Shown one piece after another: positions 3,656 to 21,271 of a stretch of 33,924 bases of DNA (its first letter is position 1; each line of letters starts with the position of its first letter). The notes beneath the pieces are model-generated. The model worked only from the letters and a program-made list of their open reading frames with translations, was not told where the DNA came from and ran no database searches. The stretch is from Clostridiales bacterium (GTDB lineage: Bacteria; Bacillota; Clostridia; Lachnospirales; WQUN01): assembly GCA_031269415.1 (NCBI GenBank), contig JAISZF010000285.1, positions 1 through 33,924 on the forward strand. Direction: 5' to 3'. Both the position numbers and the translations under genes were made by a program.

Positions 3656-3656
3656 C

Positions 3657-4421: not shown

Positions 4422-4433
4422 AAAGGAGCGGGT

Positions 4434-5318
4434 ATGGAATTATTTACTGTAAAGAATGAAAACCTCAGCGTCCGCGTTTCGCCGCTGGGCGCGGAGATGC
4501 AGTCCATTAAGGGAAAAGACGGCCGCGAATATCTATGGTACGGCGATCCGGCTTTTTGGAACCGCAGGGCGATCAATCTATTTCCTTATATAGCCCGTTT
4601 AACCGCGGGGAAATACAGCTTCGAGGGCAAAGAATACCCCATGACGATCCACGGGTTTCTGCCTGAATCAGTTTTAAATGTGGAATCGCGGAACGATACG
4701 GAAATATGTTTCCTGCTGACAGACAACGAGGAAACCCGCGCCATATATCCCTTCAACTTTGAATTGCGCGTAGGATACGCTTTATCCGGGAATACGATTC
4801 ATATCCGGTTCGATGTCCGCAACACGGGCGGCTGCCCTATGCACTTCGGCATAGGCGGGCATCCGGGGTTTCTCGCGCCTATGGAAGACGGATTGACGTT
4901 TACGGACTATGTTCTGGAATTTGACCGGCCGTGCAAGCCCCTGCGCGCAGGATTCTCGGAAAGATGCTTTGTGGACGAGGAAAAAACCGAAGAATATCCC
5001 CTGACGGACGGGCGGATCATTCCGCTTAGGCATAATCTATTCGATCACGACGCAATTGTCCTGAGGGGAACGAGCGGAACCGTAACCCTAAAAAGCGCCA
5101 AGGGAACCAAGAGTGTGACCGTGCGTTACCCCGACATGCCCTATGTGGGGTTTTGGCACACCGTGAAAAAGGAAGCGCCGTATGTGTGCGTGGAACCATG
5201 GTCCTCCCTGCCGTCCCGCGACGGGATTGTAGAGGATATAAGCAGACAGGATAACCTGATCCATCTGCCCGCGGGCGAACAGTACGTTAATAACTGGTCG
5301 ATAGAGATCAATCAGTAA
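4434..5318 (+). CDS. Aldose 1-epimerase-like (galactose mutarotase fold) protein
   Basis: LSVRVSPLGAEMQSIKGKDGREYLWYGDPAFWNRRAINLFPYIARL...IHGFLPE...GGHPGF; RBS GAAAGGAG. Confidence 0.88.
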   Translation: MELFTVKNENLSVRVSPLGAEMQSIKGKDGREYLWYGDPAFWNRRAINLFPYIARLTAGKYSFEGKEYPMTIHGFLPESVLNVESRNDTEICFLLTDNEETRAIYPFNFELRVGYALSGNTIHIRFDVRNTGGCPMHFGIGGHPGFLAPMEDGLTFTDYVLEFDRPCKPLRAGFSERCFVDEEKTEEYPLTDGRIIPLRHNLFDHDAIVLRGTSGTVTLKSAKGTKSVTVRYPDMPYVGFWHTVKKEAPYVCVEPWSSLPSRDGIVEDISRQDNLIHLPAGEQYVNNWSIEINQ

Positions 5319-5321
5319 AAT

Positions 5322-5352
5322 AAGGCGGGGAACCGTTTGGGTTCCCTGCCTT
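5322..5352. terminator. Bidirectional hairpin terminator between convergent genes
   Basis: AAGGCGGGGAACC (5322-5334) / GGTTCCCTGCCTT (5340-5352), one G.T wobble, flanked by AAAA and TTTATT. Confidence 0.8.
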
Positions 5353-5358
5353 TTATTA

Positions 5359-6795
5359 TTAAGCGAATATATTTTTAAGCACTATAGTTTTCAACTTAGT
5401 AACTTCGTCAAACGTAGACATAACGCCTTCCGTGCCAATACCCGAGTATTTATACCCGCCGAACGGCATTTCAAAGCTGCGGAAGAAACTGGCGCCGTTT
5501 ATAACCACGCCGCCGCATTCCAACTCAGCCGCCGCTTTAAAAGCAGTCTTCATGTCGGCGGTGAATATACATCCGCACAGCCCGAAAATGGACTGATTCG
5601 CAATCTCTATCGCTTCTTCGACTGTATCGAAGCCTATAATCGGAACGACCGGCCCGAAGATCTCCATATCAATCGCGACATCGGCGGTTTTCGGCACATC
5701 CGCGATAACCGTGGGTTCATAGAACGCGCCGTTACGCTTGCCGCCCAATACTATTTTGCCGCCCTGCTCCACAGTCTGGTTCACCTGCCGCTCGACCTCA
5801 ATGGCGGCTTTCTCGCTGATCAAGCAGCCCAATTGCGTATCGTCGTCCGAGGGATCGCCCAATTTTATCTTTTTTATACGAGCGACGGCTTTTTCGGTAA
5901 ACACTTCTTTCAGGCTGTTATGTACGATGAAACGCTTTGAGGCGCAGCAGACCTGGCCGGTATTGTACATGCGGCCCCAGATCAATTCCTCCACCGCCAA
6001 ATCCACGTCCGCGTCCGCGCAGACAATAAACGCGTCGTTGCCGCCCAGTTCCAGAGAAATATGCGCCAGATGGCCAGCCGCGTTCTTCGCGGTCTCAATA
6101 CCCACCGAGGTGGATCCGGTAAAGGTTATGGCGTGAACGCCGGGATGACCGCACAGCCAACCGCCCACCGTAGCGCCGCGCCCGGTCACGATCTGTACCG
6201 CGCCGTCGGGCACGCCGGCTTTGACCAGAAGTTCCGTCAAGATACACAGCGTTAACGGATTGTCAGTGGAAGGCTTTACAATTGCGGCGTTTCCCGCCAT
6301 TAAAGCCGGGGCGACCTTTTGATCAAACAGGTCGCAGGGAAAATTGAACGGAATAACGCACGCCACGACGCCCACAGGTTCGCGCCGGGTAATCAGCATA
6401 TGATTCTCCTGATTCTTTTCAATCCCGTTCGGAATGACCTCGCCGTATAAATGCTTGGCTTTCTCCACGAACGCCTTGAATGAGATGGGGATATTAGCGA
6501 TCTCTCCCCTCGCCTCAGTAATGGGTTTCCCTGTTTCCTGCGAAAGGGTTTGCGCCAAACGCTCTTTGTTCTCCTCGACCAGACCGATGAACGCTTCAAT
6601 GATCTCGCCGCGCTTATAAACCGGATAGGCGGCCCATACCTTCTGCCCCGCCTTCGCGTATTCGACTGCTTTGTTAATATCCTCTTCCGTGGCCGCCGGC
6701 ACGGTGTCGATCAGTTTGCCGTTTGCCGGATTTATTACATCTATGGTCCCGCCATCGGACGCCTCCGCCGCAAGCCCGTTTATAATCATTTTCAT
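5359..6795 (-). CDS. NAD(P)-dependent aldehyde dehydrogenase
   Basis: FNFPCDLFDQKVAPALMAGNAAIVKPS, ITFTGSTSVG, HISLELGGNDAF, NTGQVCCASKRF (catalytic Cys), MEIFGPVVPI. Confidence 0.93.
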   Translation of the reverse strand: MKMIINGLAAEASDGGTIDVINPANGKLIDTVPAATEEDINKAVEYAKAGQKVWAAYPVYKRGEIIEAFIGLVEENKERLAQTLSQETGKPITEARGEIANIPISFKAFVEKAKHLYGEVIPNGIEKNQENHMLITRREPVGVVACVIPFNFPCDLFDQKVAPALMAGNAAIVKPSTDNPLTLCILTELLVKAGVPDGAVQIVTGRGATVGGWLCGHPGVHAITFTGSTSVGIETAKNAAGHLAHISLELGGNDAFIVCADADVDLAVEELIWGRMYNTGQVCCASKRFIVHNSLKEVFTEKAVARIKKIKLGDPSDDDTQLGCLISEKAAIEVERQVNQTVEQGGKIVLGGKRNGAFYEPTVIADVPKTADVAIDMEIFGPVVPIIGFDTVEEAIEIANQSIFGLCGCIFTADMKTAFKAAAELECGGVVINGASFFRSFEMPFGGYKYSGIGTEGVMSTFDEVTKLKTIVLKNIFA

Positions 6796-6815
6796 AGTTG
6801 ATCAGCCGTCCTTTT

Positions 6816-7970
6816 TTATTTAGTGAAGCCCGTATACGAAAGCATCAAACCGCCGGTGGAATTATTCCCGTCGTCCTCGTACCCATACTCGCCGAACGTA
6901 AATTGCATCATAAACGGGACATCGCCCGCTTCCGCCTTAACCGCTTCCGCGACCTCGTTCAGCCTGTCGCCGATACCCGCCCTGCGGCCTCCGCAGTGTA
7001 CCAGCAGGAAACCGGCGGGCTCGGCGGTCATTTTTTCTTTCAACGCCTTCAGCGTTTCGGACGCTGAAGCGATCAACTCGTCCACAGTGGATTCCATTCG
7101 GATAACCGCGGTCTTTTCAGCGAGATTAGCGCCGATATTCATCGAGTAGTCGTCATTGCCGTTCATGGGATGGCGGATGGCCGTTAGATCGCCAAGTCTG
7201 TCCTTAATGCCGAGCGGAGAGGTAATCGTGGCGACAAGCAGGTTGCCTCCCATAATAGTGTCGGGATCAACGCCGCGCCACTCCGCGTACTTTTTAACCG
7301 CCGGTACGCCGTCTATCTCCTCCAGCACGCGGTTGTCGCGCACTTTGGTGATAATTCCAACATCGTCCGTTTCCCGGTAAGCGCCGGTAAAGAGATTCAC
7401 CGCGGGTTCGCCGCCGTAGAAAAACGCGACGGCCACGCCGTCCGCGAAAGCTCCCTCGTCCGTATAGACCTTCCACTCGCCCGAAATAGTGTTATCCGCC
7501 GCGCTGCCGCCGAAAAGCGGCTTGCGTCCGATAACATCCGATATACCCTTTAAAAAGAATTCCTCTTCGCCGGGAGGCGCGGCCATATAAAAGTAATCCG
7601 GCGATCCGTTTGCCTCGGCGGCGGCCAGCGCGGCCATTTTACCCGTGTCTCTGGCGCTGCCTTCCTTAGGCAGGCCTTTAACGCCCACATAGAAATCCTC
7701 ACCGCTTAACAGCATTACGCCCACGAATCCCTCGTCGCCGGTTATGTATCCCTCCGGGGTTATTACGCCGGTAAACGACGTATTCCCAATAACGGGAACC
7801 CCGGGAAGCGCTTCCTTTACACCCGCCAGAAGCAAGTCCATGTCGTACGCTACGCTTGAATACACAAGCGCCAATTTCGCGCTTTCAACGCCGTCCTCCG
7901 CCTTCCGCGCGGCGGCCTTCCCAGCCGATTTGGCGCAAGACAGAACGCTTGAGCCGATTGTGCATTTCAT
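6816..7970 (-). CDS. Stand-alone FIST (FIST_N + FIST_C) domain protein
   Basis: FIST features: IGSSVLSCAKSAGKAA...ALVYSSVAYDMDLLLAGVKEALPGVPVIGNTSFTGVI...GEYGYEDDGNNSTGGLMLSYTGF. ATG 7970 has a GGGAGG RBS (ORF-track start is 7991). Confidence 0.82.
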   Translation of the reverse strand: MKCTIGSSVLSCAKSAGKAAARKAEDGVESAKLALVYSSVAYDMDLLLAGVKEALPGVPVIGNTSFTGVITPEGYITGDEGFVGVMLLSGEDFYVGVKGLPKEGSARDTGKMAALAAAEANGSPDYFYMAAPPGEEEFFLKGISDVIGRKPLFGGSAADNTISGEWKVYTDEGAFADGVAVAFFYGGEPAVNLFTGAYRETDDVGIITKVRDNRVLEEIDGVPAVKKYAEWRGVDPDTIMGGNLLVATITSPLGIKDRLGDLTAIRHPMNGNDDYSMNIGANLAEKTAVIRMESTVDELIASASETLKALKEKMTAEPAGFLLVHCGGRRAGIGDRLNEVAEAVKAEAGDVPFMMQFTFGEYGYEDDGNNSTGGLMLSYTGFTK

Positions 7971-8104
7971 CAAAAAACCTCCCTCGTTCATTCAATCTAA
8001 TGGTGCTGTATTAAGTATAAATCAATAAAAACGCTTAGCAAGCTGACGGTTCCAAATATCCGCCGGCGCGTTCCGCTAGGAGGAACAGGGATTAAACGCC
8101 GTAA

Positions 8105-8138
8105 AAATAAAAGCGTGGGTTATCCCACGCTTTTATTT
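8105..8138. terminator. Perfect 15-bp hairpin, bidirectional terminator
   Basis: AAATAAAAGCGTGGG (8105-8119) TTAT CCCACGCTTTTATTT (8124-8138). Confidence 0.8.
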
Positions 8139-8302
8139 GCGGACGGTTCAGAACCTAAATTCGATTGGATGTACTCATCAATGCAGTCTATGACTTTGTT
8201 TTTAGAGTTGAGCAAAGAACATGGACGAACTTATGTTTATTCCAGTCGAATTTCCAGCAAATAAAATAAGGCAAGGAAACGCTCGGTTCCCCTGCCCTTC
8301 GC

Positions 8303-9136
8303 TTAACCTTTATCAGCGCCCATCGCCCTATAGATCATTGAGGCGCACTCTTCTCTGGTCGCTTTATCGCGCGGCCTTGTGCCGTCTGTAACGCCGTTCT
8401 CGATAGCCCATTCCCACGATTTTTCCGCCCAGTCGGAAGGCCCCGTTTCCTTCGGGGGAACCTGTACTCCCGCGCTCATCGCGTTGTGAATATCCGTCTT
8501 CATCTGTTCCCAGGCTGAAGGATTATTCACGTAATAGAGCGGACATAGTTTTCCTGTTACGTCATAATGCCTCTTAACATTGTTGAACGCGTTGAACCCA
8601 TGCCGTTCGCATATATCGGCGGTAAGCTCAATCAGTGCTTTGTACGTTACCGCGCTGAATTTCCCCGTCTTATCCGGATGACACACCTCAATCCCCAAAT
8701 AGGTCGAGTTGTTTGTTTTCGCCTGTTCCGTCCAAGCCGCTCCATAGGCCCTGCCCGCGTGCATAGCGCGTTCATTTTCAGGTATCAAACGAAGTATCTC
8801 GCCTTGCAGACCCACAATATAATGGCAGGATGTGCCGTTGCCGTCCGAACCGTTTTCAAAGTAATTTCTGTTCGCCAGCGCGCTTGAGCCGGGGTTTGCC
8901 ACATAGTGGATCACAACGCCCTTGGCGTTCAGCTTTTGACCCGTGCGCCCGTGAGACGCGCCGGGCGTCAGCAGTTTGTCGGTAATAACCGGCGCTCCGA
9001 ATGTCTGAGGCAGGATCGCGGAGTCCGAGGTTGTTTCGCCCGCGCATTTCCGCCCGATAAAATAACCAGCGGCGCCTGCCGCCAGCATACCCACGCCGGC
9101 CGCAAGCGCAACCGCCCATTCATATTCCGTATTCAT
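8303..9136 (-). CDS. N-acetylmuramoyl-L-alanine amidase (amidase_2/PGRP) with N-terminal TM anchor and C-terminal SLH-like segment
   Basis: N-terminal TM EWAVALAAGVGMLAAGAAGYFIGRK; VVIHYVANPGSSA, SCHYIVGLQGEILRLIPENERAMHAG, LGIEVCHPD, VKRHYDVTGKLCPLYY; C-terminal WAEKSWEWAIENGVTDGTRPRDKATREECASMIYRAMG. Confidence 0.88.
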   Translation of the reverse strand: MNTEYEWAVALAAGVGMLAAGAAGYFIGRKCAGETTSDSAILPQTFGAPVITDKLLTPGASHGRTGQKLNAKGVVIHYVANPGSSALANRNYFENGSDGNGTSCHYIVGLQGEILRLIPENERAMHAGRAYGAAWTEQAKTNNSTYLGIEVCHPDKTGKFSAVTYKALIELTADICERHGFNAFNNVKRHYDVTGKLCPLYYVNNPSAWEQMKTDIHNAMSAGVQVPPKETGPSDWAEKSWEWAIENGVTDGTRPRDKATREECASMIYRAMGADKG

Positions 9137-9259
9137 TCTAGAACCTCCTTGTTCAAATCGAATTAGTACAATATATGATTAAAGACGGGAGGCGCTACTA
9201 ATTTGGATAAATAAAATATCGAGTCCTTCAGCCCAATAGCTTCATCTCACTTCATACAC

Positions 9260-9294
9260 AAAAGACGCCGTACGTAAACCGTACGGCGTCTTTT
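9260..9294. terminator. Perfect 15-bp hairpin terminator downstream of the small peptide gene
   Basis: AAAAGACGCCGTACG (9260-9274) TAAAC CGTACGGCGTCTTTT (9280-9294). Confidence 0.8.
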
Positions 9295-9311
9295 AACTCA
9301 GCTCATCGTTA

Positions 9312-9572
9312 TTATAGACCGAATAAATTAAATATAGGAGTGCCGATGGCGCTTATCACATCTAAGACGCCATGTGCTTTTGTATTCACAACCTTAGCGT
9401 TTGATGTGTTAACTAAACCCGTCACAGCTTGAAAACCTATGCCCACAATGCCGAGTATAGTGTTGAATATAGAACCGCCTATAGTCGGCAGACCCAACAG
9501 GCCGCCCCTGACTTGCGTCGACTCTTCCGTATTCAGTTCCGTAAAACTGGAATTAACCAATTCCTTTTTCAT
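9312..9572 (-). CDS. Putative double-glycine-leader secreted peptide (bacteriocin/pheromone-like), 86 aa
   Basis: MKKELVNSSFTELNTEESTQVRGG | LLGLPTIGGSIFNTILGIVGIGFQAVTGLVNTSNAKVVNTKAHGVLDVISAIGTPIFNLFGL. GG-type leader, hydrophobic Gly-rich core, strong GAGGAGG RBS, own terminator. Confidence 0.65.
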   Translation of the reverse strand: MKKELVNSSFTELNTEESTQVRGGLLGLPTIGGSIFNTILGIVGIGFQAVTGLVNTSNAKVVNTKAHGVLDVISAIGTPIFNLFGL

Positions 9573-10098
9573 TTTATGACCTCCTCGCAGATTATACGCC
9601 GCTTGTATCGACAGCCCCTCCTCTTAGTACAGGGGCGGGATTAACAAAGCTAGCTTATTTATGTATTAAAACGACAATATATTCAATAAATTGAATTTTT
9701 TATCGTTTATAGTATTATTATAAGAAATTTAAGATATTTTGTCAATACGTGAAGTATAGAAAATATTTGGAAACCAGAGTAATGGTATTGCCTGATAGTA
9801 GAATCCTCAGCAAACGTTAACATGAAAAACTATTAAATATATTTAAAACGAGCAGATATTTAATAGTCTTATACAACATAAATTTGCCGATGTAATTTTT
9901 ACGCCTATAGCAGACGCTAAGATCCATTTATCGCTGTACCCTTTGCGTCTCGTTTTATATAATCAAGCCGCTCTTAAATCATCAGAAAAATTCTTTTCAA
10001 CTTATTTCTTGATAAATATAACAAATTATATGAATAAAATTTAGTGCATATTACTATTGATGTGATAAATCAATTATGCTACTATGGGTATGCTTGAG

Positions 10099-10154
10099 GA
10101 AACGTTTTCAGAAGTACCTCGGCGATTATTTTTTTACAAAGTGTAAACGTTTAC
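10099..10154 (+). promoter_or_regulatory. Two LacI/cre-type operator-like palindromes upstream of the sugar cluster
   Basis: GGAAACGTTTTC (10098-10109) and perfect palindrome GTAAACGTTTAC (10143-10154), centers 45 bp apart. A LacI-family gene lies in the same cluster. Confidence 0.55.
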
Positions 10155-10171
10155 TTGGAAGGGGGCTATTA

Positions 10172-10957
10172 TTGCTCATTGGAAGCGCTGCTTCTATCGC
10201 GGATTTAGACATATTAATGAATGCGGGTTATGACTACATAGAATTAAGCGCTCGTTATTTATGCGGACTTGAAAACAGACGCGCTAATGAGGTAATCCAC
10301 TCATTTCTTAAGCGTGATTTTCAATGCCTTGGATTTAACGCGTATTGTCCCCCCGCGATTCAGATGGCGGGGCCGCTGTACAATCCAAAAGAAGCTGACG
10401 CTTACACGCGTAAATGTCTTGCGTACGCGCGTGAACTGGATATCCGGCATATAGGCGTCGGTTCGCCTTTATCCAGGCGGCTGCCGCCGGGATACCCTAA
10501 AAAAGAAGCGGCGGAACAAATCCGCGGGTTCTTAACCATAACCGCGGATATATTCGGCGCGGCGGGCATATATGTCTGCCTCGAAGCCTTAGCGCCATGT
10601 TACTGCAATTATATCAACACGCTCTCCGAGGCGGCGGAGATAATAAACAGCCTGAATCATCCGTTTTTAGCCATGGTTCCGGATTTTTACAATATGGAAC
10701 TCAGCGGTGAGTCGAATCTGGATTTATCTGTTTATTTGCCGCTTATAAGACATGTCCATATATCTGACGATGACGGCTCGCCTGCCCTGCGCTCTTTTCT
10801 GAAAAGCGAAAAATTTCCGATTCACGGACAGCGCTTGAAAAGCTTGCTGGGCACCGGGTATAACGGCGCGTTAAGCGTCGAGATTGACGTTCCCGCGGAT
10901 TTGACGCGCGCTTCACGAACACTGGAATTTTTGCGCGGCGTTGTTTCACGGTGCTGA
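10172..10957 (+). CDS. Sugar phosphate isomerase/epimerase-like TIM barrel (xylose isomerase-like/AP endonuclease 2 family)
   Basis: GYDYIELSARYL...LDIRHIGVGSPLSRRLPPGYP...GIYVCLEALAP...NHPFLAMVPDFYNM...IRHVHISDDDG. TTG 10172 with GGAAGGGGG RBS is preferred to the ORF-track start at 10076, which would place the operators in the coding sequence. Confidence 0.8.
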   Translation: MLIGSAASIADLDILMNAGYDYIELSARYLCGLENRRANEVIHSFLKRDFQCLGFNAYCPPAIQMAGPLYNPKEADAYTRKCLAYARELDIRHIGVGSPLSRRLPPGYPKKEAAEQIRGFLTITADIFGAAGIYVCLEALAPCYCNYINTLSEAAEIINSLNHPFLAMVPDFYNMELSGESNLDLSVYLPLIRHVHISDDDGSPALRSFLKSEKFPIHGQRLKSLLGTGYNGALSVEIDVPADLTRASRTLEFLRGVVSRC

Positions 10958-11004
10958 CGGCTAGGTCATATGCAGTATATTATTTTACAAATTGGAGGAA
11001 CAGT

Positions 11005-11709
11005 ATGTTTTCTGTTGAAGAAAACTTGGCGATTATAAACAAGTTTAAGGGTTTACGGGTTACAGACGTACGCGACGGCATGGATTGGGTAGGATATATG
11101 CACTACGGCACGGTTCATCACTCAATCCGCCCGCTATACCGCGCCAGCGCGATCGGCATCGCGCGGACGGCTCGTTACCTGCCATTCGAAGGCCCCGCGC
11201 CGACGGTAACCGGAGACGAGTATACCAAATGGGCGCATTGGTATTACGGCAATGTATGTACGGATCCTTGGGGCAGAGAGATTCAGCCCGGCGATTTTAT
11301 CTGCTTGGATATCTGCGGTCTGGACGTGGGTTTGCTGGGGTCTAACAATACTCTGGACGGCAAAAAGAAAGGCGCGGTTGGATATCTTACTAACGGAGGA
11401 GGTATCCGTGACACCGACGAGGTAATCCTTGAACAGATACCGATCTGGTCTAAGCATGTTTCCCAGCCCATGGATCAGGGAAGAATCCGTTTTTATGAGA
11501 AAGACATACCCATCGCGGTCGGAGGCGTGGCAATCTATCCCGGTGATGTTATTGTCGCCGACGGCGACGGCGTAATAGCTGTTCCGCGGAAAGCGGCGGA
11601 TGACGTGGCGAAATACGCGTGGCAGGAAGCGTCTAATGACAAAAAGGCGCGTAGGAGCATGTACATAGAAATGGGCATGGAAACAGACTCAACTGTGGAG
11701 ATAGACTGA
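11005..11709 (+). CDS. RraA-like protein (dimethylmenaquinone methyltransferase / HMG aldolase superfamily)
   Basis: FKGLRVTDVRDGMDWVG...GDFICLDICGLDVGLLGSNNTL...GAVGYLTNGGGIRDTDEV...GGVAIYPGDVIVADGDGVIAVPRKAADDVAKYA. ATG 11005 with GGAGGA RBS. Confidence 0.85.
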   Translation: MFSVEENLAIINKFKGLRVTDVRDGMDWVGYMHYGTVHHSIRPLYRASAIGIARTARYLPFEGPAPTVTGDEYTKWAHWYYGNVCTDPWGREIQPGDFICLDICGLDVGLLGSNNTLDGKKKGAVGYLTNGGGIRDTDEVILEQIPIWSKHVSQPMDQGRIRFYEKDIPIAVGGVAIYPGDVIVADGDGVIAVPRKAADDVAKYAWQEASNDKKARRSMYIEMGMETDSTVEID

Positions 11710-11741
11710 AAGCCCAACATTTTAACGAGGAGGATTTGTTA

Positions 11742-13151
11742 ATGAAAAGAATGTTATCCTCAATTCCGGCGCTGATAATTTGTTTATCTCTGGCCGTCGG
11801 ATGCGCCGGAAACAGTCCGGCTCAGACTAACAGCAGTCAGTCCGCGGCGGCGCAGTCCGAGTCCGCGGCGCTTCAACCCGCGGAGCAGAGCGCGTCAGCA
11901 GTCGCGGAAAGCGAATCCGCTCAGCCGGTAGAAAACGTAGAAATTCGCGCCGCGTGGTGGGGCGACACGGGGCGCAACGATCTGTATCAACAGATTACGG
12001 GTCGATTTGAGGCGGATAATCCCGATGTGAAAGTAATATGCGAGCCTGTCAGTTGGACTGATTATTGGGATAAACTGGCCGTTCAGACATCCAGCAACAA
12101 CGCTCCCGATTTTATGGGCATGCACCCGCAATACGCCGCCGACTATATCGGAAGAGGCAAAATCGAGCCGCTTCAGCAGTACATCGACAGCGGCGCGCTT
12201 AATATGGAAGGCTGGCCGGAAGGCGTTATCAACACCGGTTCGGTAAATGGCACGTTATATATGCTGGCTATGGGCGTTACATTCTCGTCTGTATTTGTAA
12301 ACGACGGATTATTTGAACAACTCGGCGTAACCAAACCCGGTTTCGACTGGAACTGGGACGATATGAAAACGATCGGCACGGACACCCGCGCGAAACTTGA
12401 CGCCGCCGGCATGGACAGCTCGTGGTTTATGGCTGATTTATCAAACAACCTGAATTCCTGGAGATATTTTGTGCGTCAGAACGGGCATGAGATTTATACC
12501 GCTGACGGTGAAATAGGCTTCACATTAGAAGACGTAACCGATTGGTGGACAATGTACACGGAATTCCGTCAACTAGGCATTGTACCCGACGCGGCGACGA
12601 CAACCGAATACAGCACGGCTACCTTGGAAGACAGCCTCTTCTCCCGGGATAAGGTTCTTGCCATTCTGGTACCGGTCAATCAATTTAAGCTATATTCCAC
12701 GACATTTCCCGATAAAAAACTCAGTATTATCAGGAACCCAAGCGCGGCCGGCAAAGCGGTCGGCGAGTTCCCCGAAGGGGCGCATTTCGCTATATCATCC
12801 GCGTCCGCGCCTGAGAAAAAAGCCGCGGCCGCCCGTTTAATGAACTTTTGGATTAACTCCGCCGCCAGCTTGGAATTATTCGGGTTGGATCAAGGCGTAC
12901 CCGGAAACACCTCGTTATCTGACTCGTATATGCCAAACCTTGATGAGTACCAGTTGCAGATATACGATTTTGTTGAAAAGCTGTCGGAAATCGGCACTCC
13001 TTCCACTTTCCCGGCTGCCGGGGCGACGGAGGTTGACGCGTTGTTTAAATCAATAGCCGAGTCGATCTCTTTCGAGCAAACTACTGTTGAAGACGGCGCC
13101 CAGCAGTTCTTTGAACAAGCAAAAACCATAGTCGCGGATAATAAATCCTGA
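11742..13151 (+). CDS. ABC transporter sugar-binding lipoprotein
   Basis: Lipoprotein signal MKRMLSSIPALIICLSLAVGCAG and extracellular solute-binding family 1 features (AAWWGDTGRNDLYQQITGRFEADNPDVKV...). Confidence 0.92.
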   Translation: MKRMLSSIPALIICLSLAVGCAGNSPAQTNSSQSAAAQSESAALQPAEQSASAVAESESAQPVENVEIRAAWWGDTGRNDLYQQITGRFEADNPDVKVICEPVSWTDYWDKLAVQTSSNNAPDFMGMHPQYAADYIGRGKIEPLQQYIDSGALNMEGWPEGVINTGSVNGTLYMLAMGVTFSSVFVNDGLFEQLGVTKPGFDWNWDDMKTIGTDTRAKLDAAGMDSSWFMADLSNNLNSWRYFVRQNGHEIYTADGEIGFTLEDVTDWWTMYTEFRQLGIVPDAATTTEYSTATLEDSLFSRDKVLAILVPVNQFKLYSTTFPDKKLSIIRNPSAAGKAVGEFPEGAHFAISSASAPEKKAAAARLMNFWINSAASLELFGLDQGVPGNTSLSDSYMPNLDEYQLQIYDFVEKLSEIGTPSTFPAAGATEVDALFKSIAESISFEQTTVEDGAQQFFEQAKTIVADNKS

Positions 13152-13187
13152 TAAAGTGAGTTAACCCGTGAATTCAGGCTGATTAAC

Positions 13188-13225
13188 GGGAAGCCGCTTC
13201 ATGAATTATTATGAAGCCGCTTCCC
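13188..13225 (+). other. Intercistronic stem-loop between binding protein and first permease gene
   Basis: GGGAAGCCGCTTCAT (13188-13202) / ATGAAGCCGCTTCCC (13211-13225), one mismatch, 8-nt loop, no T-tract; extended by TTAA/TTAA pairing. Confidence 0.65.
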
Positions 13226-13262
13226 TTAACAGGACAGGCGGGGTCGGACGGAGGCGTCTTCG

Positions 13263-14147
13263 ATGAAGCGGCATGTTTTCAATAAACCGTGGGAAGCTTA
13301 TCTGTTTTTACTCCCATGGCTGGTGGGCTTATTGAGCTTCACAATTATTCCGATAATTATGTCGCTGTACTTTTCATTTACGCGTTATGACATGGCAAAC
13401 AGCCCCTTGTGGATTGGCATGGGCAACTATATGACCATGTATAAGGATCCGCGCGTCTGGAAAAGTATAAGCGTTACATTTAGATATGTGTTGCTAGGTA
13501 TCCCGTTTCAATTGTCATTCGCGCTGTTCCTTGCCGTTATTCTGAAAAAACAGCGGGCAGGTGTGCGCATATACAGGGCGGTATATTATCTGCCGTCGCT
13601 TTTTGGGGGCAGCGTTGCGGTAGCGTTACTATGGAGGCAGATCTTCAACAAAGAGGGGATTATAAACCGGCTGCTCTCACTTTTGTCCATTGAGGGTAAG
13701 AACTGGATCGCTTCTCCGGATACGGCGCTTTATACGCTTATACTGCTGTCTATTTGGCAGTTCGGTTCTTCGATGGTCATTTTTTTGGGAGGCTTGCAGC
13801 AAATACCACAGGATTTATACGAGGCGGGTTCGATTGACGGGGCCGGTAAAGTCAGGCTGTTTTTTACCATCACTTTGCCGCTGCTTACCCCGATGGTTTT
13901 CTTTAATCTGATAATGACCATTATAAACGCCTTTCAGGCCTTTACGCCGTCATACATTATCAGCGGCGGAACCGGAAGTCCTGTGGATTCCACGCTTTTC
14001 TATACCCTTTATTTGTATATCAACGGTTTTAAGCAGTTTAAGATGGGATACGCCTCGGCAATGGCATGGGTGTTATTGGTCATAATAGCCGCGGTAACCG
14101 GCGTTATGTTTGGTATAGGTAAAAAGTGGGTGTATTACGATGACTAA
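13263..14147 (+). CDS. ABC sugar transporter permease (MalF/UgpA type)
   Basis: AYLFLLPWLVGLLSFTIIPIIMSLYFSFTRYD and EAGSIDGAGKVRLFFTITLPLLTP (EAA loop). Confidence 0.93.
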   Translation: MKRHVFNKPWEAYLFLLPWLVGLLSFTIIPIIMSLYFSFTRYDMANSPLWIGMGNYMTMYKDPRVWKSISVTFRYVLLGIPFQLSFALFLAVILKKQRAGVRIYRAVYYLPSLFGGSVAVALLWRQIFNKEGIINRLLSLLSIEGKNWIASPDTALYTLILLSIWQFGSSMVIFLGGLQQIPQDLYEAGSIDGAGKVRLFFTITLPLLTPMVFFNLIMTIINAFQAFTPSYIISGGTGSPVDSTLFYTLYLYINGFKQFKMGYASAMAWVLLVIIAAVTGVMFGIGKKWVYYDD

Positions 14148-14979
14148 AAGGCGGGTAAACTCAATTATATTTCACGTTTTGATTATTCTGTTCGGTTTCA
14201 CTATGCTGTATCCGCTGCTATGGATGCTTATGGCGTCATTCAAAACGAACCAGGAGATATTCGCCGGCGTAAACTTTTTCCCCGAAAATCCTACCCTTGG
14301 CAACTACGCCAGCGGATTCAAAGGGGTATCCGGTTACAGTTTCTTCAGATTCATCGGGAATTCGTTTTTATTGGCCGCCGTTTGCATAGTGGGTAATATC
14401 GCATCCTGCTCTATGGCCGCTTTCGCTTTCGCGAAATTAGATTTCAGATTAAATAAGTTTCTGTTTTCCGTAATGATGGTAACGCTCATGCTTCCGTTTC
14501 ATGTACGCCTGATACCGCAATACATAGTTTTTAATGGGATGGGTTGGATTGACACCTTCCTGCCGCTGGCCGTGCCAAAGTTTTTCGCCACGGAGGGTTT
14601 CTTTATCTTCCTCTTAACTCAGTATATGCGCGGCATAAGCAATGAACTGCTTGAGGCGCCGCGCATCGACGGTTGTTCCACTTGGCAGATCTTTTTATAT
14701 TTCATGCTGCCTCTGTCGCTTCCCGGTTTAATGACTATCGGAATTTTTACATTCATATGGACATGGAATGATTTCTTCTCGCAGATGATCTATATTTCCA
14801 ATCCGATAAGATTTACTGTTTCCGTCGCCTTGCGCATGTTTGTCGACACCACCGGCCAAAGCACATGGGGCGCGTTGTTCGCGATGTCTTGCGTGTCTCT
14901 GGTTCCATTGTTCGCGTTATTTATCGGTTTCCAGAGATACCTGATTGAAGGCATCGCCGCGGGCGGCATTAAAGGCTGA
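14140..14979 (+). CDS. ABC sugar transporter permease (MalG/UgpE type)
   Basis: FTMLYPLLWMLMASFKTNQEIF and EAPRIDGCSTWQIFLYFMLPLSLPG; overlaps the previous CDS. Confidence 0.93.
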   Translation: MTKRRVNSIIFHVLIILFGFTMLYPLLWMLMASFKTNQEIFAGVNFFPENPTLGNYASGFKGVSGYSFFRFIGNSFLLAAVCIVGNIASCSMAAFAFAKLDFRLNKFLFSVMMVTLMLPFHVRLIPQYIVFNGMGWIDTFLPLAVPKFFATEGFFIFLLTQYMRGISNELLEAPRIDGCSTWQIFLYFMLPLSLPGLMTIGIFTFIWTWNDFFSQMIYISNPIRFTVSVALRMFVDTTGQSTWGALFAMSCVSLVPLFALFIGFQRYLIEGIAAGGIKG

Positions 14980-15053
14980 GGGAAACTTTCGTATCAGATC
15001 TGTCTGTTTCCTGTGGTATAATGCGATAAAATACCGGAAGGGACGGGCTGGTA

Positions 15054-16079
15054 ATGTCTGAGAGAAATGTAACGCTGCGTGAGGTAGCGAAAAAAGCCGG
15101 AGTATCTATAGCGACAGTCTCAAGGGTTCTCAATGAGTCAAATTATGTAAGTCCCGAGATACAGAAAACCGTACGCGCCGTGGTCAAGGAATTGGGATAT
15201 TACCAAAACTCCGCGGCGCGCAGTCTTAAAACCAATTCTTCCATGACTGTCGGCTTTGTGACAGCCGATATTTCAAATCCATATATGATCAACGTCGCCG
15301 GGGCAGTAGAGGATTTGATATGGGATCTCAAATACAGCCTGGTGGTTTGCAGCACTCACTCCAGCGCCGAGCGGGAGTTGGAATATCTTAAACTCTTAAT
15401 GGGCAGAGGCATTGACGGTCTATTATTAAACGGAACCGGGAGCAACGCCGACTTCATTTCCGATATCAGCAATCGGATCCCCGTCGTGCTTTTGCATAGG
15501 AGTTATGACAATACCGGATTTATCGGCGATCTGGTCGACAGTGACAATGAGGATGGCGTATACGCGCTGACAAAACACCTAATACGTATTGGGCATAAAA
15601 GAATATTCGTTGTGAAGGGACAGGACGTAAGCAATAATAAACTGCGTTTAGCGGGCTTTGCCCGGGCGATGCGTGAAGCCGGCATTGACGCCGGCATACA
15701 TTACCCATATCTATATGGCGATGATTTTACCATAGAGACCGGATATCGAGCCGTTGAAAAGCTGCTCGGCATGGAAGAACGCGCCACCGCGATTCTGGCG
15801 CTCAACAATACCTTGGGTCTAGGCGTGCTTCAAGGGTTGGCCGAGCATAATCTGCGCGCTCCGGAGGATATATCCGTAGCGCATTACAACAGCATCGACC
15901 ATCACGAAATGATGCTCGTCCGACCGATGATGCACCACGTCGATCCTCGCGAGGTAGGATTTACCGCGGGAAAGGCGCTTCTGGCGCGCATGGATAATAA
16001 TAAACTCGCAAACCGCGCCTATATTGTCAAGGGGAAGCTGATACCGGGAAACGCCGTAGGTATGCCGCTTTCAATGTAA
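15054..16079 (+). CDS. LacI-family transcriptional regulator
   Basis: VTLREVAKKAGVSIATVSRVLNESNYVSPEIQKTVRAVVKELGYYQNSAARSL plus periplasmic-binding-like effector domain. Confidence 0.96.
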   Translation: MSERNVTLREVAKKAGVSIATVSRVLNESNYVSPEIQKTVRAVVKELGYYQNSAARSLKTNSSMTVGFVTADISNPYMINVAGAVEDLIWDLKYSLVVCSTHSSAERELEYLKLLMGRGIDGLLLNGTGSNADFISDISNRIPVVLLHRSYDNTGFIGDLVDSDNEDGVYALTKHLIRIGHKRIFVVKGQDVSNNKLRLAGFARAMREAGIDAGIHYPYLYGDDFTIETGYRAVEKLLGMEERATAILALNNTLGLGVLQGLAEHNLRAPEDISVAHYNSIDHHEMMLVRPMMHHVDPREVGFTAGKALLARMDNNKLANRAYIVKGKLIPGNAVGMPLSM

Positions 16080-16114
16080 TAAACCTTAATAAATAATGAG
16101 AGGATCAAAATAAC

Positions 16115-16570
16115 ATGAGCAGTGCGTTTGTATCAGAAAGCACAGGCCGCGCGGTCTTAATCCATATGACTGTCGGTGATCGGCTGCTGGAAACAATACG
16201 CGAGGAAGCAAAGCGTTTGAACATACAATCAGCCATAGTCACCGGCGGCATCGGATCTCTGCGCAAGGCCGTATACCACTATATTGAGGCGGTGACCGAA
16301 GAACCGCGCGACGCTTATAAAACCGTTGAAAGGCCGATGGAACTGGTGTCCCTGCAGGGTATTGTTCTGGAAGGCGAGCCTCACCTGCATATGGCGGCGA
16401 CCGAAGAAGGCGGCGGTGTGTGCCACAGCGGACATGTGGAGGAAGGCTGCGAGATTCAATATTTGGCCGAAATCTCCTTAATTGAGCTGAAAAATCTGCC
16501 TTTAGGCCGACGCGCCGAAAAATATGGAACAGTAACACATTTTGAGCTGTTAAATGGAGGTAACATGTAA
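16115..16570 (+). CDS. PPC/DUF296 domain protein
   Basis: GRAVLIHMTVGDRLLETIREEAKRLNIQSAIVTGGIGSLRKAVYHY...LVSLQGIVLEGEPHLHMAATEEGG. Confidence 0.8.
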   Translation: MSSAFVSESTGRAVLIHMTVGDRLLETIREEAKRLNIQSAIVTGGIGSLRKAVYHYIEAVTEEPRDAYKTVERPMELVSLQGIVLEGEPHLHMAATEEGGGVCHSGHVEEGCEIQYLAEISLIELKNLPLGRRAEKYGTVTHFELLNGGNM

Positions 16571-17508
16571 TGTCAACCCGAAAGCAAAAAAAAGTAGTAA
16601 TAAGCGCGGCGATTACAGGAGGCGTGCATACCCCCTCCATGTCTCCCTATCTGCCGAAAACGCCTGACGAGATAATCCAGAACGCCGTAGACGCCTGTAA
16701 AGCGGGCGCCGCCGTGGTCCATATACACGCGCGGCGCGAGGACGGCAGCCCTACCGCGGAATATGATTATTTCGAGAAAATCCTGTCCGGAATAAAAAAG
16801 CAGTGCGATGTGGTCGTCGGCATTACCACAGGCGGCGCGCAGGGTATGACCGTAGAGGAACGGTTCGCGGTGATAGAACGTTTTAAGCCCGAAATCGCCT
16901 CCGCAAACGGCGGATCCATGAATTTCACCTTTTCCCGTTTAGCCGATACATACAAGCCGTTCCAATATGACTGGGAACAGCCGTTTATTGAACGCACATG
17001 GGACAATATATTCAAGAATACATTCCGCGATATCGAGTACTGTATAAAAATCATGAACGCCTGCGGCACGCGCCCGGAGTTTGAGTGTTTTGACTTCGGT
17101 CAGGTAGCCAACGTAGGTTACTTTGTCAAACAGGGGATCGTTCAAAAACCCGTGTATCTGCAATTCGTGCCCGGCATAATGGGCGGCATGCCCATAGGAT
17201 ATGACGCGATGATGTTTATTATCGAACAGGCCAAAAAACTGGTGAGTCCGGATATAATATACTGCACTGTGGCGCCGGGCAGGCGCATGTTCAGACTGGC
17301 CGCGATGATGGCGATTAACGGCGGCCATGTGCGCGTCGGCATGGAAGACGGACTGTATATAAAACCCAATGGGGAACTGGCAAAGAGCAACGCCGAACAG
17401 GTAAGCAAGATTCGCGGTATTCTGGAAGCGCTTGATTTCGAGATAGCCTCGCCGGACGACGCGCGTGAGGAGTTTGCCCTAAAAGGCGCTGATAAGGTGG
17501 AATTCTGA
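16570..17508 (+). CDS. BKACE (DUF849) beta-keto acid cleavage enzyme
   Basis: KKVVISAAITGGVHTPSMSPYLPKTPDEIIQNAVDACKAGAAVVHIHARREDGSPT (metal-binding HIHAR), VVVGITTGG, MFRLAAMMAINGGHVRVGMED. Confidence 0.92.
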   Translation: MSTRKQKKVVISAAITGGVHTPSMSPYLPKTPDEIIQNAVDACKAGAAVVHIHARREDGSPTAEYDYFEKILSGIKKQCDVVVGITTGGAQGMTVEERFAVIERFKPEIASANGGSMNFTFSRLADTYKPFQYDWEQPFIERTWDNIFKNTFRDIEYCIKIMNACGTRPEFECFDFGQVANVGYFVKQGIVQKPVYLQFVPGIMGGMPIGYDAMMFIIEQAKKLVSPDIIYCTVAPGRRMFRLAAMMAINGGHVRVGMEDGLYIKPNGELAKSNAEQVSKIRGILEALDFEIASPDDAREEFALKGADKVEF

Positions 17509-18674
17509 TGTATAAAAATATAGGAGTCTATGGTATGGCGCGAACCCCCGTCGGATCTTTCGGGGGTTCGCTGAAAAACCACAGCGCGGTTGATCTGGCC
17601 GCGCTTGTTATCGCCGAAGCCGTTAGGCGCTCCGGCATACCGGCTGATCGTATAGGCGATGTTATTATGGGATGCGTCGGCCAATACGGCCTGAACATAT
17701 TCTTAGGCCGTTTGGCCGGGCAGAAGGCAGGATTGCCCGAGCAAATCCCCGGGCAGACGGTAAACCGCATGTGCGCCTCCGGCCTGCAGGCTATCGCTTC
17801 CGGCGCGGATTTGATCGCTCTGGGTCACGCGGACGCGGTTATCGCCGGCGGCGCTGAAAGTATGAGCAATTTCCCATTCAGCGTGGCAAACGCCCGCTGG
17901 GGCTTGCGGATGGGGGACGCCGCCTTAAAAGACGATTTGGTTAACGCGCTTATAGAACCGTTCACCGGTGCACATGTTGGAATTACCGCGGAAAACATAG
18001 CCGAGAGATACGGTTTAACCCGTGAGGAGCAGGACGCTTACGCGCTGGAGAGCCAAAACCGCGCCTTAGCCGCCGCTGCCGATGGGAAGTTCAAGGAAGA
18101 GATTGTTCCCGTAGAAATAAAAGATAAAAAACAGACCGTTATTTTTGACGCGGACGAATACCCGCGCCAGACCAGCTTGGATAAACTGGCGAAACTGCGA
18201 CCCGTGTTCAAAGGCGACGGTTTAATAACCGCCGGAACGGCGTCCGGAATTAATGACGGAGCCGCCGCCGTGGCGTTGGCCGATACGGACAAAACGGACA
18301 GAAAACCTCTGGCGAAATTTATAGATTACGCGGTCGCTGGGCTTGATCCCGCTTACATGGGCCTGGGGCCGGTCTACGCCACGCGCAAACTGCTGGATAA
18401 AACAGGCTTAAATATCTCCGACATCGGGCTGGCTGAACTGAACGAGGCTTTCGCGTCACAGGCTATGGCCTGCGTGAGAGAATTGGGTCTGAGTATGGAT
18501 ATTGTCAATGTAAACGGCAGCGGTCTTTCTCTGGGTCATCCCTTGGGCGCTACCGGAGCTATAATCAGTATTAAATTAATCAACGAGATGAAACGCCATG
18601 GAGTCCGCTACGGTCTGGTATCGCTGTGTATCGGCGGCGGACAGGGCATGTCGGCCATCTTCGAGGTATCCTGA
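17508..18674 (+). CDS. Thiolase (acetyl-CoA acetyltransferase family)
   Basis: TVNRMCASGLQAIASGADLIALGHADAVIAGGAESMSN, LNEAFASQAMA, NVNGSGLSLGHPLGATGA, CIGGGQGM. Confidence 0.94.
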   Translation: MYKNIGVYGMARTPVGSFGGSLKNHSAVDLAALVIAEAVRRSGIPADRIGDVIMGCVGQYGLNIFLGRLAGQKAGLPEQIPGQTVNRMCASGLQAIASGADLIALGHADAVIAGGAESMSNFPFSVANARWGLRMGDAALKDDLVNALIEPFTGAHVGITAENIAERYGLTREEQDAYALESQNRALAAAADGKFKEEIVPVEIKDKKQTVIFDADEYPRQTSLDKLAKLRPVFKGDGLITAGTASGINDGAAAVALADTDKTDRKPLAKFIDYAVAGLDPAYMGLGPVYATRKLLDKTGLNISDIGLAELNEAFASQAMACVRELGLSMDIVNVNGSGLSLGHPLGATGAIISIKLINEMKRHGVRYGLVSLCIGGGQGMSAIFEVS

Positions 18675-20077
18675 TGAAAACCTTTACGCGGACGGCGGCA
18701 AGCTTCCCGCCGATTGTTCCCGCGGAGGCGGACGCCGCGCTCAAAGCCGCCGAACCAACGCGATCGGTAAAGGTAATCGCGCTGGACGACGATCCGACGG
18801 GCACTCAAACTGTTCACGATATCTTTGTATATACCGACTGGGATAGAGACAGCGTAAGGCAGGGCTTGGACGACGCGGACAGACTGTTTTTTATCCTGAC
18901 CAATTCGCGGGCCTTCAGCGTCAGCGAAACAGTCCGCGTTCATGAGGAAATCGCGCGGAACATAGCCAGTCAAACGGATAATTTTGTGTTGGTCAGCCGA
19001 GGCGATTCCACCCTGCGCGGCCATTACCCCATAGAAACCGATGTTCTGCGCCGCGCCTTGGCGGAAAACGGATATAAAACAGACGGCGAGATTATTTATC
19101 CGTTTTTCCCGGAGGGCGGACGTTATACCGTTGAAAACATTCATTACGTCAAATACGGCGATGTGCTGGTTCCCGCCGGTGAAACGGAATTCGCGAAGGA
19201 TAAGACATTCGGATATACAGAGTCTGATTTGACGAAATGGATAGAAGAAAAAACATCAGGCGCTTATAAAGCGAAGGATGTAACCACAGTAACTCTTGAC
19301 GAGCTCAGGCGGCAGGATTATGACGGCATAACAGCCAAGCTCATGGGTGTTTCAAACGGAAAGGTTATTGTCAACAGTCTCACATACGACGACGTAAAGG
19401 TATTTACGACGGCGTTCTGGAGAGCCTGGTCTATGGGCAAGCGCTTTATAATCCGAAGCGCGGCGGCGTTCGTTAAAGTCTTGGGCGGCGTGACTGATAA
19501 AGAGCCGCTTACCTCGGAAGAACTGAAAATGAACGTGAAGAGCCGCCGCGGAGGGCTTATTATCGCGGGTTCTCATGTAAAGAAAACAACGGATCAACTG
19601 GAAACGCTGCGCGGCGTTCCCGGTTTGACTTTCCTTGAATTGAACCAACACCTGGCGCTGGATGAAGCGGCTTTTGAGGCTGAAGCCGACAGGGTCGCGA
19701 AACAGGCGGACGCCCGCCTAGCCTCCGGAGAGACTGCGGTTATTATGACTCGCCGCGAGCGGTTCGATCTGGGAACCGGGGATAAGGCGGCGGAACTCGA
19801 TCTGGCCGCCAAGATATCCGACAAGCTCTGCGGTATCGTCCGCAAGCTGACTCACTCCCCAAGGTTCGTTATCGCTAAGGGCGGCATTACTTCCAGCGAC
19901 ACAGCCATAAAGGGCTTGGGCATTAAAAAAGCGCTGGTACTGGGGCAGATTCTGCCCGGCGTGCCCGTATGGCGGGCGGGTTCGGAAACTCGTTTTCCCG
20001 GCCTGACATACGTTGTCTTTCCCGGCAACGTGGGAGACGAGCACGCTCTGATGGAAGCCGTCAAAAAATTGATATGA
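18674..20077 (+). CDS. Four-carbon acid sugar kinase family protein (DUF1537/OtnK-like)
   Basis: KVIALDDDPTGTQTVHDIFVYTDWD, ILTNSRAFSVSE, LVSRGDSTLRGHYPIETDVL, FVIAKGGITSSDTAIKGL. ATG 18674 overlaps the thiolase stop (TGATG). Confidence 0.93.
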   Translation: MKTFTRTAASFPPIVPAEADAALKAAEPTRSVKVIALDDDPTGTQTVHDIFVYTDWDRDSVRQGLDDADRLFFILTNSRAFSVSETVRVHEEIARNIASQTDNFVLVSRGDSTLRGHYPIETDVLRRALAENGYKTDGEIIYPFFPEGGRYTVENIHYVKYGDVLVPAGETEFAKDKTFGYTESDLTKWIEEKTSGAYKAKDVTTVTLDELRRQDYDGITAKLMGVSNGKVIVNSLTYDDVKVFTTAFWRAWSMGKRFIIRSAAAFVKVLGGVTDKEPLTSEELKMNVKSRRGGLIIAGSHVKKTTDQLETLRGVPGLTFLELNQHLALDEAAFEAEADRVAKQADARLASGETAVIMTRRERFDLGTGDKAAELDLAAKISDKLCGIVRKLTHSPRFVIAKGGITSSDTAIKGLGIKKALVLGQILPGVPVWRAGSETRFPGLTYVVFPGNVGDEHALMEAVKKLI

Positions 20078-20086
20078 GGTGAACGC

Positions 20087-20818
20087 GTGAAACGTTTGGA
20101 GAACAAAACAGCCGTAATAACCGGCGCTGCCCAAGGCATAGGGTTTGCGGCGGCAAAAAGGCTGTTTGACGAGGGCGCGGTGTGCGCGTTGATTGATGTA
20201 AACCTGGAGTCGTGCAAGGCGGCGGCTGCAAAAATAGATCCCAATGTATACGCCTTTGCTTGCGATGTATCCGATCGCCAAGCTGTTTCGGATGTATTCG
20301 CCCAAATTTACGGCGCGATGAAACGCGTTGATATCTTGATTAATAACGCGGGCATAACACGAGACGGCATGTTCCACAAAATGATAGACGACGAATGGGA
20401 CGCCGTTATCAACGTCAACCTGAACGGCGTGAGGAATTGCTGCAAGGCGGTCGTCCCCGCGATGCGTGAGAATAAATACGGCAAAATCGTAAATCTGGCG
20501 TCCGTATCCGCGTTCGGTAACATGGGCCAGACAAACTACGGCGCTGCCAAGGCGGGCGTAATAGGGTTCACAAAGTGCCTGGCCAAGGAAGCCGCCCGAA
20601 ATAATATAACGGTTAACTGCGTAGCGCCAAGTTATATTGATACGGAAATGCTGAGAGCCGTGCCGGATAAGGTGATGGAACGTTTTATCGCCGCCATCCC
20701 GATGGGCAGGCTGGGAAAGCCGGAAGAGCTGGCGGCGGCTGTCGCGTTTCTTTCCAGCGATGATTCCAGTTTTATAACCGGAGAATGCCTAGTGGTTTCC
20801 GGCGGATCATATATGTAA
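20087..20818 (+). CDS. Short-chain dehydrogenase/reductase (FabG-like)
   Basis: GTG start; AVITGAAQGIGFAAAKRLFDEGA, ILINNAGITRDGMF, YGAAKAGVIGFTKCLAKEAA. Confidence 0.93.
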   Translation: MKRLENKTAVITGAAQGIGFAAAKRLFDEGAVCALIDVNLESCKAAAAKIDPNVYAFACDVSDRQAVSDVFAQIYGAMKRVDILINNAGITRDGMFHKMIDDEWDAVINVNLNGVRNCCKAVVPAMRENKYGKIVNLASVSAFGNMGQTNYGAAKAGVIGFTKCLAKEAARNNITVNCVAPSYIDTEMLRAVPDKVMERFIAAIPMGRLGKPEELAAAVAFLSSDDSSFITGECLVVSGGSYM

Positions 20819-20833
20819 CCGCGGGGTGAGTGA

Positions 20834-21271
20834 GTGAATATAATTATCGGCGGCGATCACGCCGGGTTTGCGTTAAAACAGGAGTTATTTGAAAAGCTTA
20901 GGCAAGACGGGCATACAGTACAGGATGTGGGATGTTATTCACTGGAACCTGTGGACTTTCCCGATGTGGCGAAAAAGATCTGCGCCGCTATATTGAACGG
21001 GCAGGCGGAACGCGGCGTTATGGTGTGCGGTACCGGGGTGGGCGCGGCTATCGCCTGCAATAAAACAAAGGGTATCCGCGCCAGCGTCATACACGACGCA
21101 TATACGGCCAGACAGTGCGTCGAACACGACGACGTACAGGTATGCGCTTTGGGCGCGCAAGTTATCGGAAATCTCACGGCGTTTGATCTGTTGAAAATAT
21201 TTCTGAACGCCCGGTTTTCAGGCGACGCGGAATTTATTACGCGTCTGAACAAGCTGTCTGAAATGGAATGA
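20834..21271 (+). CDS. rpiB: RpiB/LacAB-family sugar-phosphate isomerase
   Basis: GTG start; MNIIIGGDHAGFALKQEL...GVMVCGTGVGAAIACNKTKGIRASVIHDAYTARQCVEHDDVQVCALGAQVIG. Confidence 0.93.
   Translation: MNIIIGGDHAGFALKQELFEKLRQDGHTVQDVGCYSLEPVDFPDVAKKICAAILNGQAERGVMVCGTGVGAAIACNKTKGIRASVIHDAYTARQCVEHDDVQVCALGAQVIGNLTAFDLLKIFLNARFSGDAEFITRLNKLSEME

Follow-up and report, generated by a model that had tools for sequence, protein, structure and literature searches.

Which compound is broken down by the products of a gene set in which a beta-keto acid cleavage enzyme (BKACE, DUF849) stands beside a DUF1537 kinase? This question is raised by a contig of 33,924 nucleotides from a Clostridiales bacterium (JAISZF010000285.1, assembly GCA_031269415.1), hereafter the window, in which an initial annotation had pointed out six packed genes and proposed an acid-sugar catabolic pathway. 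The list of open reading frames and the Pfam profiles agree with it on the six genes, their families and their positions, all on the plus strand: a PCC/PPC (DUF296) protein (16115..16570; PF03479, 62 bits), BKACE (16570..17508; PF05853, 309 bits for a gathering score of 24.8 bits), a BktB-like thiolase (17508..18674; 284+149 bits with Pfam), the DUF1537 kinase (18674..20077; PF07005 + PF17042, SBD_N+NBD_C, 170+127 bits), a FabG-like short-chain dehydrogenase/reductase, SDR (20087..20818; PF13561/PF00106, 204-222 bits), and an RpiB-type isomerase (20834..21271; PF02502, 159 bits). The packing is as tight as had been described, with one-base overlaps at PCC/BKACE, BKACE/thiolase and thiolase/kinase and gaps of 9 bases between kinase and SDR and of 15 bases between SDR and RpiB; the kinase most likely starts at the ATG at 18674, the upstream GTG at 18626 being also open. 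These six genes (16115-21271) make up the downstream half of a unit of twelve same-strand genes (10,172-21,271), whose upstream half encodes a TIM-barrel protein (TIM), an RraA-like protein, a binding protein and two permeases of an ABC importer, and a LacI-family regulator, with a largest gap of about 111 bases. We place the start of the unit at about 10172, some 6 kb upstream of the proposed one, because of the adjoining epimerase-like TIM barrel, RraA-like protein and operator-like sites, which had been overlooked. Our answer, which we put forward tentatively, is that the unit is a LacI-controlled catabolic operon for an imported sugar-like compound, with SDR, BKACE and kinase acting in series.

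The searches for BKACEs of this clade covered samples of 96, 388, 397 and 398 genomes, with differing E limits and one genome per species. Among the sampled genomes, such a BKACE was seen only in the window's own draft genome (G000, 86% complete), in G024, in G475, which is the complete chromosome of Hungatella hathewayi DSM 13479, and in G582, and four loci were compared: the window, L021/L030 (G024), L072 (G475) and L117 (G582). L030 is contig JAISWZ010000209.1 of a metagenome-assembled genome from a related Clostridiales, and L021 (G024:C683) is the same stretch; there the gene order is identical (TIM-RraA-SBP-permease-permease-LacI-PCC-BKACE-thiolase-DUF1537-SDR, without RpiB), and the seven proteins and the regulator that were compared are 49-86% identical to those of the window. 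In L072 the same enzymes are rearranged, PCC and LacI being divergent from RraA-TIM-BKACE-thiolase-kinase-SDR, with identities of 41-68% (BKACE 68%, SDR 67%, RraA 63%, thiolase 61%) and with a creatininase-family gene and an ABC importer in the upstream flank. L117 is a variant with LacI, an importer, an ADP-ribosylglycohydrolase-family gene, TIM, BKACE (64%), MaoC, a 3HCDH dehydrogenase, RpiB (59%) and a GH38 mannosidase; the 3HCDH dehydrogenase and MaoC stand in place of SDR and thiolase, and kinase and RraA are missing. The comparison of DUF849-beside-DUF1537 neighbourhoods that the initial annotation had suggested thus found the enzyme set again in L021/L030 and in Hungatella, and a chance adjacency is ruled out by the conserved order in the former and the conserved set in the latter. 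By the same comparison RpiB loses its proposed place in the core, since two of the four loci (L030 and L072) are without it and only the window and L117 have it; we consider it an optional member.

In the other BKACE neighbourhoods (L118, L131-L136, L138, L139; 43-53% identity) there was no homologue of the kinase, RraA or PCC. One of them, L118 (G559, 3329-19480), offers an inositol-like setting for its BKACE (43%): two sets of CoA-transferases and Gfo/Idh dehydrogenases accompany an RpiB-like protein, GH38, an ABC importer of the ribose/inositol type and a thiamine diphosphate enzyme that scores 303 bits to IolD, below the cut-off. We also observed a separate, second pairing of the two families, in which a short DUF849 protein, mostly without the HTPSMSPYLP segment, lies near DUF1537 (L068, L073, L077, L085, L087, L089, L093, L095, L103-L106, L108). 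Its partners are often an Asp/Glu racemase-family protein, GntR, a class II aldolase or a TRAP transporter, some loci being beside GH127 or other glycosidases; 12 of the 13 short proteins fall in one supported clade, with L077 apart.

The BKACE of the window keeps the catalytic residues in the alignments: H51 and H53 of the zinc-site His x His, E172, R255, E259 and D260. E172 and R255 map to E171 and R254 of BKACE15 (8RIO), which are its catalytic residues (PMC11961710). All the residues used by BKACE15 and by Kce, the enzyme of lysine fermentation, are present, except that the lysine-type Glu14 is replaced by Val19. The predicted function is to cleave a beta-keto acid by means of acetyl-CoA, and a lysine-type Kce is ruled out by Val19, found where the Glu14 that binds the 5-amino group is expected, and by a score of 236 bits against a cut-off of 382. 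The closest curated family is that of the 3,5-dioxohexanoate enzyme (NF053538), with 395 bits for the window, 387 for L072 and 379 for L117; as all are under the cut-off of 430 bits, we rejected the assignment as a triacetate lyase as such. In a tree of 40 BKACEs, the window, L021, L072 and L117 form one clade (support 96/98), of which L131 is the sister (100/99). The L131 BKACE adjoins an IlvD-type dehydratase and a UlaG-like lactonase, neighbours that could belong to sugar-acid metabolism. The motifs F-D-x-G-Q and F-V-P-G are common to this clade and L131, and GRRMFR in the clade is GRRSFR in L131; all of these may be specificity residues, and FVPG and GRRMFR could be fitted to a substrate that is polar or anionic.

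In all four loci a dehydrogenase and a CoA-ester enzyme stand beside BKACE. The CoA enzyme is the thiolase in three of them and 3HCDH with MaoC in L117, all of kinds that handle 3-ketoacyl- or 3-hydroxyacyl-CoA. By motif reading the thiolase of the window is complete, with intact Cys/His/Cys motifs and a best match to the BktB-like profile. The SDR is likewise complete; its best profile scores are to FabG and acetoacetyl-CoA reductase, and it is 74% identical to the SDR of L030 and 67% to that of L072, as compared with 34-41% for SDRs of other loci. Enzymes of these three kinds are already known to act together, in deoxyribonate degradation (PMC6365646) and, as TfD-TAL-thiolase of Clostridium scatologenes, in phloroglucinol degradation (PMC10470551). 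The neighbouring dehydrogenase probably feeds BKACE.

The sequences themselves show the families of the genes, the conserved catalytic residues, the synteny, the clade of the BKACEs and the operator-like sites; we infer every reaction, the count of six and four carbons, the substrate and the order of steps. The compound would enter through the ABC importer, made up of a solute-binding protein (11736..13151, plus strand; SBP_bac_1/8, by family profile) and of permeases 1 (13263..14147) and 2 (14140..14979), both on the plus strand and assigned by sequence and synteny with L021. The TIM epimerase and the RraA-like protein would convert it to a C6 acid with a CH2 at C2, the SDR would oxidise the 3-hydroxyl to give a beta-keto acid, and BKACE, with acetyl-CoA, would yield a C4 acyl-CoA and acetoacetate. 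The thiolase would act on the CoA side, and the C4 acid, once released from CoA, would be phosphorylated by the DUF1537 kinase and pass to triose-phosphate metabolism. A six-carbon substrate is suggested because BKACE removes C1-C2 and the adjoining kinase family takes four-carbon acids (C6-C2=C4). We keep the earlier proposal of one catabolic unit around BKACE but, on the same carbon counting, prefer a series to its separate phosphorylated kinase branch; its "acid sugar" is a candidate substrate.

That the kinase acts on a BKACE-derived C4 acid is possible, though we would not rely on it. The kinase scores far below every curated equivalog cut-off of its family: DtnK 56 bits (cut-off 450), OtnK 39 (350) and OiaK 31 (700). 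Within 5 kb of 80 close kinase loci, the partners were a GarR/HIBDH-type dehydrogenase in 54, a class II aldolase in 24 and PdxA in 3. DUF1537 tetronate pathways with OtnK, DtnK and DenK types were reportedly described in PNAS in 2016. Those pathways, which are summarised in PMC10971088, likewise have a DUF1537 kinase within a catabolic operon, whereas the unit of the window has BKACE and thiolase and, by a family scan, no OtnC or tetronate dehydrogenase. The same scan bears out the absence from the unit of the PdxA2-like dehydrogenase and class II aldolase that usually accompany such kinases, and PdxA is also absent from G000.

The TIM-barrel protein (10172..10957, plus strand; PF01261; TTG start at 10172 by comparison with L030) is xylose-isomerase-like and resembles ketose 3-epimerases: its profile matches are D-psicose 3-epimerase, YcjR and IolI, its predicted fold matches the same group (TM 0.74), and its presumed metal ligands E138, D171, H196 and E237 are invariant in the alignment. 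Its gene is a neighbour of the BKACE gene in L072 and L117. An IolO/epimerase-type TIM barrel recalls the Thermotoga inositol pathway (IolN/IolO), as does the creatininase-family gene that flanks the Hungatella set (a weak match to IolN of 26 bits), but the scores are far under the IolO and IolN cut-offs, and we know of no BKACE or DUF1537 in that pathway. The RraA-like protein of the class II aldolase/decarboxylase family (11005..11709, plus strand; PF03737) is 63% identical to its counterpart in L072 and 57% in L144, with invariant GIRD and VADGDGV motifs. L144 (G770, 2244-10468) encodes this homologue with a permease 55% identical to permease 2, a GH42 protein and an aldo/keto reductase, the contig ending right after RraA.

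In the PCC protein, the HxH...H residues H90, H92 and H107 are invariant in the alignment. Its predicted fold matches the metal-containing AF0104 (2H6L) and, more weakly, alpha-acetolactate decarboxylase (ALDC; TM 0.5); the protein may be a metal enzyme and not a DNA-binding protein. RpiB has the catalytic-Cys motif CGTGVG and lacks the phosphate-site Arg of the C-terminal GGRH (FSGDAEF against FQGGRH of 3HE8), as does, by reading, the L117 copy (59% identity); because of this missing Arg, its substrate may not be ribose-5-phosphate.

The LacI-family regulator (15054..16079, plus strand; PF00356 + Peripla_BP_3) is 63%, 47% and 44% identical to the copies of L030, L072 and L117. A perfect LacI-family operator-like palindrome, GTAAACGTTTAC, to which no strand applies, lies just upstream of the TIM start (10143..10154) and also resembles a CcpA cre site; a second, likewise strandless palindrome upstream of TIM (10098..10109), GGAAACGTTTTC, differs from it by 2 mismatches. 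With up to 2 mismatches the operator pattern gave 6 matches, as compared with a mean of 1.5 in shuffles, none of 100 of which reached 6. L030 has two palindromes ahead of TIM (628-643 and 680-695) and L072 a similar one directly upstream of TIM, which with the window makes three genomes that have LacI-type palindromes ahead of this gene; in L117 the palindrome adjoins LacI instead. A scan for sigma-70 promoters and terminators gave no excess over shuffles. Outside the conserved unit, a perfect sigma-70 consensus (TTGACA-17-TATAAT) is found on the minus strand at 9745-9717, upstream of an amidase_2 gene (8303-9136), and an aldehyde dehydrogenase adjoins a FIST-domain protein on the minus strand (5359-7991), its nearest model being lactaldehyde dehydrogenase, below the cut-off.

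The series leaves the fate of acetoacetate to be accounted for. Neither G000 nor the complete G475 chromosome gave a match to the CoA-transferase families PF01144 and PF13336, and in none of the four genomes did a hit to TIGR01217 (acetoacetyl-CoA synthetase) pass the cut-off, other ligase families not being searched; CoA-transferases exist elsewhere in the G024 genome. The CoA-transferase noted as missing by the initial annotation is thus a real gap in G000 and G475. Because these three families gave no acetoacetate activator, BKACE may form a 3-ketoacyl-CoA usable by the thiolase, or acetoacetate may be discarded, unless another enzyme activates it. Use of the BKACE acyl-CoA product by the thiolase would be possible, by analogy with triacetate (PMC10470551), if the substrate were a 3,5-diketo acid.

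Several points weigh against a series of SDR, BKACE and kinase. The known loci number just four, of which two come from one family, and the kinase is absent from L117; moreover, the kinase tree gives no supported clade for the cassette (40/81), and we dropped it as evidence of co-evolution. No CoA-ester hydrolase was recognised in the unit. As the closest resemblance of the SDR is to FabG/PhaB, its substrates could be CoA esters, and, given the setting of the orthologous permease and RraA in L144, the importer and RraA may belong to a different branch.

The alternative that survives best, although we find it doubtful, is a deoxyribonate-like route for a 2-deoxy-aldonate without a 5-keto group, in which the SDR would form a 2-deoxy-3-keto-aldonate, BKACE would give an aldonyl-CoA and acetoacetate, the latter activated elsewhere, and the kinase would act on the released glycerate or tetronate. 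The same three enzymes and the same logic are genetically supported in the oxidative 2-deoxyribonate pathway of Pseudomonas simiae and Burkholderia, in which the 3-keto acid formed by an SDR is cleaved by BKACE with acetyl-CoA, a thiolase takes acetoacetyl-CoA and a kinase takes the acid that is set free (PMC6365646), and the adjoining BKACE and dehydrogenase genes of all four loci fit it too. However, in that pathway the glycerate kinase is encoded at a separate locus, the transporters are of the MFS type and the genome has candidate CoA-transferases or ligases (PMC6365646), whereas the window has a DUF1537 kinase within the operon, a sugar ABC importer, LacI, TIM, RraA and PCC, and no such CoA activators were found. 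Such a route needs the acetoacetate activation missing from the searches of G000 and G475, the glycerate kinase family is not in the unit, and the roles of TIM and RraA are left unexplained.

It is less likely still that the thiolase and the FabG/PhaB-like SDR serve CoA-ester metabolism, with acetoacetyl-CoA as their substrate in an electron sink or a butyrate branch that BKACE feeds, while kinase, RraA and TIM degrade a sugar separately. The best profile scores of SDR and thiolase agree with this, as does their replacement by 3HCDH and MaoC in L117, but it requires acetoacetyl-CoA, for which G000 and G475 have no recognised activating enzyme, and neither a crotonase nor an acyl-CoA dehydrogenase is in the unit of the window. 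An association of loose neighbours, several catabolic modules with unrelated substrates under one regulator, would account for the coming and going of RpiB, for the lack of kinase, SDR, thiolase and RraA in L117 and for the absence of a cassette clade in the kinase tree; we judge it improbable, since the set is intact in two families at the identities given above and was rearranged without loss. Least likely is degradation of the triacetate (3,5-dioxohexanoate) or phloroglucinol type, with a triacetate-forming SDR, BKACE as triacetate acetoacetate-lyase and then thiolase: the same trio occurs in an anaerobe, C. scatologenes (PMC10470551), and NF053538 is the best curated match, but every tested BKACE of the clade is under its cut-off and has Val/Ile at the key substrate position where CsTAL has Trp16, the TGAW-type BKACE (L011) is in a distant clade, phloroglucinol reductase (PGR) and the cyclase-family hydrolase (DPGC) are absent from window 10-21 kb, L021 and L072 by family scan and reading, and a sugar importer, LacI, kinase and epimerase fit it badly.

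The favoured series of SDR, BKACE and kinase can be made more precise, in a version that we regard as quite unlikely in its entirety. The substrate would be a 2-deoxy-5-keto-hexonate, comparable to 2-deoxy-5-keto-gluconate, an intermediate in the inositol pathway; the SDR would form a 3,5-diketo acid and BKACE 3-oxo-tetronyl-CoA and acetoacetate. With a 5-keto group in the substrate, release of the C4 acid would give 3-oxo-tetronate, a known substrate of OtnK-type DUF1537 kinases, which would be phosphorylated, the 4-phosphate losing CO2 to give dihydroxyacetone phosphate. PCC would be a metal enzyme for CoA-ester hydrolysis or beta-keto acid decarboxylation, and prokaryotic PCC proteins would thereby gain a role as enzymes.

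Neither the parts nor the logic of joining SDR, BKACE and thiolase is new (PMC6365646, PMC10470551). As the initial annotation had expected, we found in the open-licence literature no equivalent of the gene set, in which this trio is joined with DUF1537, RraA, TIM and PCC under LacI. If our reading holds, one route of gut anaerobes would unite cleavage by BKACE with kinases of four-carbon acids, which have hitherto been known from separate pathways, and by this route sugar-like compounds would give acetoacetate or acetyl-CoA and triose phosphate. The four BKACE orthologues, the regulator and the operators are direct handles on the substrate. The gene set is rare, being present in this gut Clostridia bacterium and also in human gut Hungatella; its elucidation along these lines would explain an orphan BKACE clade and place the poorly understood PCC and RraA-like families in a testable pathway.

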